Assembly: GCF_944324745.1 (NCBI RefSeq)
Contig: NZ_CALUXO010000085.1
Span: forward strand, 1 to 64,000
Reading direction: 5' to 3'
Length of the DNA: 64,000 bases
Origin: an uncultured Thomasclavelia sp.
GTDB taxonomy: Bacteria > Bacillota_I > Bacilli_A > Erysipelotrichales > Coprobacillaceae
Made by a program: the position numbers and the translations under genes. Shown piece by piece: positions 33,766-36,797 of the stretch; the stretch's first letter is position 1, and every line of letters starts with the position of its first letter. The notes under the pieces are model-generated. The model had not been told where the DNA came from. It worked only from the letters and a program-made list of their open reading frames with translations, and made no database searches.

Positions 33766-33793
33766 TTGTAATTATGATGATATCTATTATAAT
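33766..33793 (+). promoter_or_regulatory. Promoter of the TetM/EF-G-like fusion gene
   Basis: TTGTAA, 16 bases, TATAAT (33788-33793), 33 bases before the start codon. Confidence 0.5.
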
Positions 33794-33826
33794 TTAATTA
33801 TTATTATGAAATTAGGATGATTTTAG

Positions 33827-36385
33827 ATGAAAAATATAGTTTTTGGAATATTAGCTCATGTTGATGCTGGAAAGACAACATTGACTGAAAGTCTGCTTTA
33901 TTTAAGTGGGGCAATTAGAAAATATGGCCGTGTTGATCATGGAGATGCCTTTTTTGATTATGATTTACAAGAGCGAAACCGGGGAATTACAATTTTTTCA
34001 AAGCAAGTCGTTTTTGATTATCAAGATTGTAAATATACTTTAATTGATACACCAGGTCATGTTGATTTTTCTTCCGAAATGGAAAGAACTCTGCAAGTAT
34101 TAGATTATGCTATTTTAGTCATTAGTGGTTTAGATGGGATTCAACCACACAGCGAAACTATTTGGAAGTTATTAGAATACTATCAAATACCTACATTTAT
34201 TTTCGTTAATAAAATGGATACAACGACTAAAACTAGAGAAGAACTGATAACCAGTTTTAAAGAAAATTTCAGTGATAACTGTTTTGATTTTGATTATCGT
34301 GATGCTAATTTTTATGAAAACATTGCTTTAAATGATGAAAAATTGCTAGATTATTATTTGGAAAATCAGATATTAAGTGATGAATTATTGAGTGAAGAAA
34401 TTGCTCATCGTCAAATTTTTCCTGTGTACTTTGGATCAGCATTAAAAAATGAAGGAATTGAACACTTTTTTAATGAATTTACTCACTTTGTTCAAGAAAA
34501 AAAATATCCCGATGATTTTGGCGCTCGAGTTTTTAAAATTACTCATGATAAGCAAGGAAATCGTTTAACGCATTTAAAAGTTACTGGTGGCAAATTAAAA
34601 GTTAAAGAAAGTGTCAATGATGAAAAAATTGATCAAATTAGAATTTACTCAGGCGATAAGTATCAGATGGTTGATGAATTAACTGCTGGTAGTGTTGGAA
34701 CGATAAAGGGTTTTAAGAATATTCAAGCTGGCGATGGATTGGGATTTGAAAAATCTGATGTACAACCAATCTTAGCATCATATATGGATTATCAAATAAT
34801 TCTACCTGATGATTGTGATCAACATCAGATGATCCAGAATTTAATGTCTTTAGCGCAAGAAGATCCCCAGTTACATTTATCATATGACGCTGCGTCTAAA
34901 GAGATTCATTTACAGTTAATGGGACCAATTCAAATTGAAATCTTACAGAATATTATATTTGAAAGATTTAAAACTAAAGTGACGATTGGATTTGGGAAGA
35001 TTTTATATAAAGAAACTATTGCAGCTCCAATTGAAGGAGTAGGCCATTATGAGCCATTGAGACATTATAGTGAAGTTCATTTATTACTAGAACCACTGCC
35101 GGCAGGAAGTGGCTTGCAGTTTGCACTTAATTGTCAAGAGGAAATGCTGCCATTAAATTATCAGCATTTAGTTTTAACTCATTTACAAGAAAAAGAGCAT
35201 CTCGGTGTCTTAACTGGATCACCGATTACTGATATGAAGATTACCTTAATTGCCGGTCGAGCTCATCAAAAACATACCGAAGGTGGTGATTTTCGTGAGG
35301 CTACTTATCGGGCAGTTCGTCATGGGCTTAAACGGGCACAATCAATTTTATTAGAACCATATTTTGATTTTACTTTAAAATTACCAGTTGAGTTTTTAAG
35401 TCGAGCTATCTATGATATTGAAGCCAAAAATGGGAAATTTTCAATTGATGATCAAAATGAAAAAACTGTAACGATAACTGGTCAGGCGCCTGTTAGAAAA
35501 ATGCAGGATTATCAAAATGAAGTTATTAGTTATACTAAAGGTCAAGGTCAATTAATTTGTCATTTAGCAGGCTATCAACCTTGCTTAGATCAAGATAAAA
35601 TTGTCAGTGAGATAGGTTACGATAGCGAAAGTGATTTAAATAATCTTACTGGATCAATTTTTTGTAGTCACGGAGCTGGTTTTAATGTTAAATGGGATGA
35701 GGTAGCAAATTATATGCATATACCTTATCAAACTAAAATTAAAGAAAGTAATAATTATAAAAATGAACAAGTGCAATACCATGATGAAGATGAGGAATTA
35801 GAGGCTATCTTTTTAAAAACCTATGGGGTTTCTAAGCGTAATCTCAATAATAATCAAAAACCTAAGCCATTAATAAAACAAACTACATATATTCATAAAC
35901 CCGAATGTATTTTAGTTGATGGTTATAATTTGATTTATACTTGGCCAGAGTTAAAAGAATTGGCACGAGATAATCTTGATGCTGCCCGGATGCGGTTGAT
36001 TGATTTGATGTGTAATTATCAGGGCTATAAAAAGTGTATTTTAATTTTGGTTTTTGATGCTTATAAAGTTAAAGGTAATTTAGGAACATCAGAAAAATAC
36101 CATAATATTTATCTTGTTTACACCAAAGAAGCCCAAACTGCAGATATGTATATTGAACGAACAACTCATGAATTAGCTAGTAAATATGATATTACAGTTG
36201 TAACTTCTGATGCGCTTGAACAATTGATCGTTTTAGGGCAAGGTGGAAAGCGGATTTCTTCAAGAGAACTTTATCTAGAGGCCACTCGTTTAGATCAAGA
36301 AAAATTAACAGAATATCAGCAACGACAACCTCAAGGACATAATTATTTGTTGGCTGATTTAAAAGATTTTAATTCAAAGGAGTGA
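33827..36385 (+). CDS. TetM/EF-G-like translation GTPase fused to a YacP/Rae1-type NYN nuclease domain
   Basis: 852 residues. The N-terminal ~650 residues follow ribosomal protection proteins of the TetM/TetO type: P-loop AHVDAGKTT (10-18), RGITIFSKQ (switch I), DTPGHVDF (switch II), VNKMD (guanine specificity), then EF-G-like domains II-V. The last ~160 residues (from ~694) form a NYN/PIN-like domain: ILVDGYNLIY, LVFDAY, TADMYIERT and VVTSDALEQ, the acidic pattern of YacP. YacP (Rae1) in Bacillus is a ribosome-dependent mRNA endonuclease acting in the A site. The fusion would deliver a nuclease to the ribosomal A site by an EF-G-like module. Tetracycline resistance is possible but not implied. 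Similar fusions occur in other Firmicutes, to my knowledge. Confidence 0.85.
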   Translation: MKNIVFGILAHVDAGKTTLTESLLYLSGAIRKYGRVDHGDAFFDYDLQERNRGITIFSKQVVFDYQDCKYTLIDTPGHVDFSSEMERTLQVLDYAILVISGLDGIQPHSETIWKLLEYYQIPTFIFVNKMDTTTKTREELITSFKENFSDNCFDFDYRDANFYENIALNDEKLLDYYLENQILSDELLSEEIAHRQIFPVYFGSALKNEGIEHFFNEFTHFVQEKKYPDDFGARVFKITHDKQGNRLTHLKVTGGKLKVKESVNDEKIDQIRIYSGDKYQMVDELTAGSVGTIKGFKNIQAGDGLGFEKSDVQPILASYMDYQIILPDDCDQHQMIQNLMSLAQEDPQLHLSYDAASKEIHLQLMGPIQIEILQNIIFERFKTKVTIGFGKILYKETIAAPIEGVGHYEPLRHYSEVHLLLEPLPAGSGLQFALNCQEEMLPLNYQHLVLTHLQEKEHLGVLTGSPITDMKITLIAGRAHQKHTEGGDFREATYRAVRHGLKRAQSILLEPYFDFTLKLPVEFLSRAIYDIEAKNGKFSIDDQNEKTVTITGQAPVRKMQDYQNEVISYTKGQGQLICHLAGYQPCLDQDKIVSEIGYDSESDLNNLTGSIFCSHGAGFNVKWDEVANYMHIPYQTKIKESNNYKNEQVQYHDEDEELEAIFLKTYGVSKRNLNNNQKPKPLIKQTTYIHKPECILVDGYNLIYTWPELKELARDNLDAARMRLIDLMCNYQGYKKCILILVFDAYKVKGNLGTSEKYHNIYLVYTKEAQTADMYIERTTHELASKYDITVVTSDALEQLIVLGQGGKRISSRELYLEATRLDQEKLTEYQQRQPQGHNYLLADLKDFNSKE

Positions 36386-36393
36386 TTTTAGCA

Positions 36394-36774
36394 GTGTCAT
36401 ATAAATATAATTTAAATTATATCGGTGGTATTGAAGCATATCGTAAAAGAGCAATGTATACATTAAATATCAAAGATGATAGTTTTTCGGTAGATGGGCT
36501 TTTTAAAAGTCAACATTTTTCCTATGACGATATAGTTGATATTAAATATGGAGAAATTGATTTATTAAAAGAAAATACTGAAATTGTTAGATTGATGTTA
36601 TTTGATCAAGTTTCATTATTAAATTGGAAAAATAACAAACGGATTAATTATTGTTTAGTTATTGTTTTAAAAGATCAGACTATTTTATTTGCTGAAGAAT
36701 ATGAAGTATCTATAGCTAAAGCGTATCAAAGACTATTAGATTCAGTTAATAAAACAAGAAAAGTGAGATCTTAG
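36394..36774 (+). CDS. Uncharacterised small beta-rich protein
   Basis: About 126 residues; beta strands and a C-terminal helix (AKAYQRLLDSVNKT) give it PH-like character. No motif was recognised. The preferred start is GTG 36394, with AAGGAGTG lying 10 bases upstream at the end of the fusion gene. GTG 36382 overlaps the SD and is unlikely. It probably shares the transcript of the fusion gene. Confidence 0.6.
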   Translation: MSYKYNLNYIGGIEAYRKRAMYTLNIKDDSFSVDGLFKSQHFSYDDIVDIKYGEIDLLKENTEIVRLMLFDQVSLLNWKNNKRINYCLVIVLKDQTILFAEEYEVSIAKAYQRLLDSVNKTRKVRS

Positions 36775-36797
36775 CTTAGGCTAATTTCTCACTTTTT
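36760..36797. terminator. Bidirectional terminator between convergent genes
   Basis: AAAGTGAGA / TCTCACTTT with nested TTAGC / GCTAA. A and T runs flank it on both sides. It ends both the 36394 gene and the P-type ATPase gene. Confidence 0.8.

Follow-up and report, generated by a model that had tools for sequence, protein, structure and literature searches.

A translational GTPase fused to a YacP/Rae1-type NYN nuclease as a candidate replacement for free Rae1

The gene at positions 33,827-36,385 of the window, as we call the whole 64,000-nucleotide stretch analyzed here, encodes an EF-G-like translational GTPase joined through a linker to a YacP/Rae1-type NYN nuclease. Its occurrence across genomes suggests that this fusion is the Rae1 of the genomes that carry it, in place of the free protein. 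Rae1 is a ribosomal A-site endoribonuclease (PMC6613710; PMC12320835), and we lean toward reading the fusion as a GTPase-addressed A-site mRNA endonuclease of the Rae1 type, held on a flexible tether and replacing the free, operon-borne Rae1. The fusion architecture itself has been known since 2015, when Atkinson described a YacP-like NYN domain in Tet proteins from ten Clostridiales and suggested a resistance based on the RNase (PMC4342817). Added here are the either/or occurrence of fused and free forms, the vacated operon slot, the joint absence of both parts and the non-Tet tip of the GTPase. Neither this evidence for Rae1 replacement nor the tip was found in the literature searched, although a 2018 paper on Rae1 distribution may overlap with it.

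The fusion gene is a single unbroken open reading frame on the forward strand, with an ATG start and 852 codons for amino acids. The GTPase domain (residues 4-223; 33,836-34,495; Pfam GTP_EFTU, E 5e-52) carries an unbroken P-loop (AHVDAGKT), DTPGH and NKMD, followed on the same strand by EF-G domains II (residues 231-305; 34,517-34,741; EF-G_D2), III (328-388; 34,808-34,990; EFG_III), IV (390-505; 34,994-35,341; EFG_IV) and V (508-587; 35,348-35,587; EFG_C). With domains G, II, III, IV and V and intact GTP-binding motifs, the protein belongs to the EF-G-type superfamily, and in the predicted model its GTPase part superposes on ribosome-bound EF-G with Z up to 35. A conserved tail (590-632; 35,594-35,722), delimited by alignment, reading GYDSESD...SIFCSHGAGFNVKWDEV and present also in unfused relatives, leads into a variable linker of low confidence (633-692; 35,723-35,902), as judged from conservation and the predicted model. 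The linker holds a fusion-specific helix motif, DEELExIFxxTYG (653-667; 35,783-35,827). The NYN_YacP nuclease domain then completes the protein (695-846; 35,909-36,364; Pfam E 3.5e-48), scoring 164.2 bits against a Pfam gathering cut-off of 24.6. The tail, linker and nuclease domain likewise lie on the forward strand. AlphaFold modeling returned two confident modules separated by the low-confidence linker (pLDDT mostly < 50; pTM 0.53). A docking pose of the NYN domain was sought in two such models and none was fixed, the linker being of low confidence in both. The base composition of the gene is near that of its neighbors (32% GC vs 25-30%). The fusion proposed in the initial annotation is thus real, with the coordinates, GTPase motifs and nuclease acids that it had named.

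The nuclease part resembles Rae1 both in sequence and in predicted structure. By sequence it matches B. subtilis Rae1 with an E of 2e-24, and its predicted model superposes on the Rae1 structure 5mq9 with a Z of 20.1 and an rmsd of 1.8 Å over 135 residues, whereas the best structural match outside Rae1 reaches a Z of 9.1. The residues D698, N701, D744, D773 and D795 of the window protein correspond to D7, N10, D53, D81 and D104 of B. subtilis Rae1, and they are invariant in all 53 full-length fusions, down to an overall identity of 36% with the window protein. GTPase motifs are intact in nearly all of these fusions. The initial annotation had described an intact translational GTPase and a YacP/Rae1-type NYN domain with catalytic acids. 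Both descriptions are borne out, the former by the full Pfam series of EF-G domains together with the P-loop, DTPGH and NKMD, the latter by the NYN_YacP match and the predicted Rae1 fold; the loss of the NYN acids in an alignment with Rae1, which it had named as refuting, did not occur.

The fusions depart from Rae1 at the C-terminal end of the nuclease. The motif L[ED]xxR occurs in 23 of the 24 free YacP proteins vs 9 of 53 fusions, and is absent from the window protein. Its absence from most fusions fits a transfer of targeting to the GTPase, and the simplest reading is that targeting would have passed from the C-terminal Leu-Glu-x-x-Arg helix of Rae1 to the GTPase part. In B. subtilis, the substitution R166P in the region of this motif behaved as loss of function (PMC6613710), an effect that may arise simply because a proline in the helix unfolds it. 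Like B. subtilis Rae1 (5mq8, 5mq9), the fusion thus combines the NYN fold, all active-site acids and one copy per genome, but its nuclease is fused to a GTPase, lies outside the rlmB operon and has, as in most fusions, lost the C-terminal motif.

Judged from its sequence, the GTPase part is a translational GTPase subfamily of its own, as indicated by its separate clade outside Tet, its tip loop and its sub-cut-off scores. The best NCBIfam model for the window protein is the Tet protection equivalog NF012153, at 423.9 bits against a cut-off of 775; the second Tet model, NF033148, gives 306.9 bits against 1100, and the EF-G equivalog TIGR00484 295.3 bits against 659.4. Run against the whole genome, the Tet model found nothing above its cut-off, and its other matches there are as long as EF-G (693 aa) and as RF3-, TypA- and LepA-like proteins, names that were assigned from size and partial match. 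Conservation within the family is highest in domain IV (68% mean pairwise identity). When 53 fusions were aligned with 9 unfused relatives and with 5 Tet-type and 2 EF-G-type proteins, the tip loop of this domain, GRAHQKHTEGGDFR in the window protein (residues 477-490; 35,255-35,296, forward strand), had the form GRAHxKHTEGGDFR in almost every member, fused or unfused, whereas Tet proteins have GLYYSPVSTPADFR there. The Tet loop YYSPVSTPADFR is missing, the position of TetM P509 is a lysine (K482), and the EF-G tip histidine is retained as H480 (T. thermophilus H573, the numbering being read off the alignment). In two order-mates with small genomes (L070, L064), the nuclease acids and the P-loop are kept and the domain IV tip loop is degraded. 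In TetM, P509 is reported to contact C1054 (PMC8161019), and loop III of Tet domain IV is key for displacement (PMC4750697). The initial annotation's likening to TetM is accordingly narrowed, the GTPase being EF-G/Tet-like and not TetM.

The same distinctions appear when the fusion is set beside its better-known relatives as whole proteins. With TetM and TetO it shares domains G, II, III, IV and V and about 30% identity (with TetM, over residues 1-583), but it differs from them in tip loop, clade, the added nuclease and scores below the NCBI Tet cut-offs; in place of the Tet-type C-terminal extension with its C-terminal helix stand a different conserved tail, the linker and the NYN domain. With EF-G it shares the fold, the domain order and the tip histidine, but the stretch past NKMD is shorter, the score stays below the EF-G model's cut-off, and the genome carries a separate EF-G-sized relative of 693 aa (G000:C56). 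The Tet-NYN proteins of ten Clostridiales (PMC4342817) are, by their published description, apparently the same fusion, a translational GTPase followed by a YacP-like NYN domain. In contrast to the Tet class given to them, the tip loop, clade, operon context and copy number of the window fusion point to a replacement of Rae1.

Unfused relatives of the GTPase offer a view of how the fusion may have arisen. Proteins of the "translation factor GTPase" type without a nuclease (Clostridia L161-L169; Limosilactobacillus L122) share about 40% identity, the tip loop and the tail to about residue 632 with the fusion, but they end just past this tail, with neither linker helix nor NYN domain. In the tree, built by a quick method that leaves deep branches tentative, the GTPases of the fusions group in a single clade (support 91) whose sister is the clade of unfused copies of Clostridia (99), with Tet outside (100). 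This arrangement fits one fusion event. In the tree of NYN domains, fused and free forms are not cleanly split, requiring three changes where the least is two. The unfused GTPases of Clostridia occur both with free Rae1 and in genomes without any Rae1, which points to a job of the GTPase that is independent of the nuclease. Taken together with their end just past the tail, this occurrence indicates that the nuclease was probably appended behind a GTPase that already existed. Among fusions the linker measures between about 60 and more than 150 residues, with ~10% identity outside the helix motif, which is found in fusions and not in unfused forms.

Several individual loci depart from the common arrangement. 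In Limosilactobacillus fermentum, the unfused relative lies unannotated and broken into two frames between gpsB and a NUDIX gene (L122, 3034-4897). One genome, G595, has two unfused copies (C1:1255706-1257640, the locus L163, and C1:577258-579189) in addition to free Rae1. Another, G698, carries a standalone NYN domain of the fused type outside the rlmB operon and an unfused GTPase elsewhere (L201, 3287-3808; L205), a possible secondary fission. The G058 copy of the fusion is split, giving a GTPase of 684 aa and an NYN protein of 146 aa (L071, 5027-7081 and 7078-7518) whose frames share a GTGA start-stop overlap behind A-rich runs; the split is either genuine fission or the product of a frameshift error. 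In Lachnospiraceae and other Clostridia, versions of 1000-1148 aa (L088, L089, L096, L097, L098, L101, L105) carry additional inserts at several of the domain borders, and their Ala/Gly/Ser-rich linkers are very long.

The distribution of the fusion bears on its relation to free Rae1. The window comes from the Thomasclavelia/Erysipelatoclostridium group, in which the best named match to the fusion reaches 74%, and the fusion is the sole PF05991 match of its genome; within the family, most members hold a single copy of the NYN_YacP domain. Across the window's phylum, almost all strong matches in the sampled genomes fall in frames as long as a fusion, and those exceptions that were inspected are split copies; in G017 the fusion lies in two pieces on two contigs. 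Public records yielded 34 loci with the fusion architecture, a few of them clipped by contig ends, with many more genomes besides, and the fusion is widespread in Lachnospiraceae as well. Among 293 genomes sampled from the class of a Lachnospiraceae member, 192 have the domain. Within about 150 of these positives that were listed, 86 are fused and 59 free, with a single genome (G773) having both vs about 17 expected by independence. The corresponding Fisher p of 4e-9 overstates the exclusion, as related species were compared and ~150 of the 192 were listed. Second YacP copies initially considered in G609, G663 and G697 were rejected as matches below the cut-off. A mobile-element origin of the fusion was likewise discarded, a scan of viral contigs having found nothing. 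Two unannotated scaffolds from human feces labeled "UNVERIFIED Bacteriophage sp." (L267, 5421-7958; L268, 15276-17792) carry fusion relatives, with bacterial contamination possible, and in Monoglobus a 518-kb replicon from a plasmid collection record holds a fusion among ordinary genes.

The place that free yacP would occupy is vacant in genomes with the fusion. In the three Clostridia checked and in G773, free yacP lies between rlmB and the sigma gene in the order cysS-mrnC-rlmB-yacP-sigH. The same region without yacP is present in all 21 fusion-only genomes, including the window genome (G000:C46) and G058 with its split copy; rlmB is retained with no yacP after it, and the sigma gene is the next recognized gene in 20. 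In the window's order, all 14 informative genomes that lack the NYN domain also lack an ortholog of the GTPase, indicating that here both parts come and go together.

A promoter-like site shortly before the fusion gene, TTGTAA-16-TATAAT (33,766-33,793, forward strand), is a consensus match only, the count of such sites in the region being no higher than in shuffles; it comes after a terminator-like repeat of the upstream gene and is followed by a ribosome-binding site, AGGATGA (33,814-33,820, forward strand). Downstream, a 130-aa open reading frame of unassigned family (36,382-36,774, forward strand) overlaps the fusion by 4 nt. It has no Pfam match, and its position next to the fusion is restricted to close relatives (7 loci), outside which no conserved partner genes of the fusion were found. 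An inverted repeat with 17-nt arms, a 4-nt loop and a terminal T run (36,759-36,796) is a likely terminator between convergent genes. An Rfam search of the window gave no match, and hence no Rfam element or tet-type leader.

Against the reading of the fusion as a tethered, GTPase-addressed Rae1 speak the unfused GTPases in genomes with and without free Rae1, the genome G773 with both forms, the incomplete separation of fused and free forms in the NYN tree and the degraded tip loop of some small-genome order-mates. The reading also competes with other explanations. The two enzymes might be joined only for co-expression or ribosome proximity, with the GTPase performing an EF-G-like or protection job of its own, the NYN domain acting as an ordinary Rae1, and no gating by GTP. 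We give this a substantial minority share of the probability: the GTPase also occurs unfused, tip loop and tail included, by itself or beside free Rae1, the linker is long, variable and of low confidence, and the split copy L071 consists of two overlapping frames. On the other hand, the fusion is kept across orders and is missing in the window's order only as a whole unit, while the conserved linker helix is specific to fusions and the C-terminal motif of their nuclease is altered. A maturation factor, in which the GTPase delivers the nuclease to rRNA or tRNA precursors and not to mRNA, would agree with an older prediction for YacP-NYN (as cited in PMC4342817) and with the proximity of free yacP to rlmB and mrnC, which serve rRNA modification and processing. 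We regard it as improbable, as the characterized relative, Rae1, is an A-site mRNA endonuclease (PMC6613710, PMC12320835) and the complete lack of the gene in several order-mates would be odd for a maturation step.

Ribosomal protection against tetracycline or another A-site drug, with the RNase as a second resistance activity, is the published proposal (Atkinson 2015; PMC4342817), and the overall EF-G/Tet architecture and the rank of a Tet model as best, though sub-threshold, NCBIfam match agree with it. Its probability is nevertheless very low in our view, given 424 bits against a cut-off of 775, the missing Tet loop and the lysine at the P509 position, a GTPase clade outside Tet, the lack of a Tet-type C-terminal extension and the single copy in most family members; moreover, the promoter-like site lies too near the start to accommodate a tet(M)-type leader. 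The initial annotation had suggested that the gene may be wrongly labeled as tetracycline resistance. Current RefSeq does not support this, as the one annotated relative seen (H1) is a "translation factor GTPase family protein" and the NCBIfam Tet models stay below their cut-offs; the worry applies less there, the Tet class having been given in the 2015 paper (PMC4342817). A sequencing, assembly or annotation artefact, or a decaying gene, has a negligible chance of being the explanation. Nothing in the window gene speaks for it, although splits or frameshifts occur in a few relatives (L071; G017), and against it stand the unbroken frame, the invariant catalytic residues of 53 fusions and the same architecture in named public records.

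For the tethered Rae1-type nuclease, ribosome binding, cutting in the A site, GTP gating and the order of steps are what we infer. The EF-G-type GTPase would dock at the factor site of a ribosome whose A site is accessible. The GTP form would bind a paused 70S ribosome and probe the A site with domain IV, and GTP hydrolysis would then withdraw domain IV or free the GTPase body. In the A site, the positions of Tet-type proteins and of EF-G overlap (PMC8161019). Domain IV or the GTPase body would have to leave first, because both parts of the fusion cannot fill one A site at once. The tethered NYN domain would then swing in and cut the mRNA in or near the A site, which would start mRNA decay and make the ribosome a target for tmRNA-type rescue. 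In a variant of this scheme, cutting would take place on the neighboring ribosome of a collided pair. We put forward only tentatively, as a possibility against which the balance still lies, that GTP hydrolysis acts as the trigger or proofreading step for cutting, with domain IV sampling and the tethered NYN domain reaching mRNA only when ribosomes are in a particular paused state, either in the vacated A site or on the neighboring ribosome of a collided pair.

If this triggering by GTP is true, a bacterial translational GTPase would directly license mRNA cleavage, and the C-terminal helix of Rae1 would be redundant. If the broader reading as a Rae1 replacement holds, many gut Bacillota, among them Lachnospiraceae and Erysipelotrichales, would run Rae1-type mRNA surveillance via a translational GTPase, which would make it possible to test directly what gates an endonuclease that depends on the ribosome. 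The same reading suggests that a class filed as tetracycline resistance in 2015 is a housekeeping factor of mRNA decay or quality control, which resistome counts should omit.
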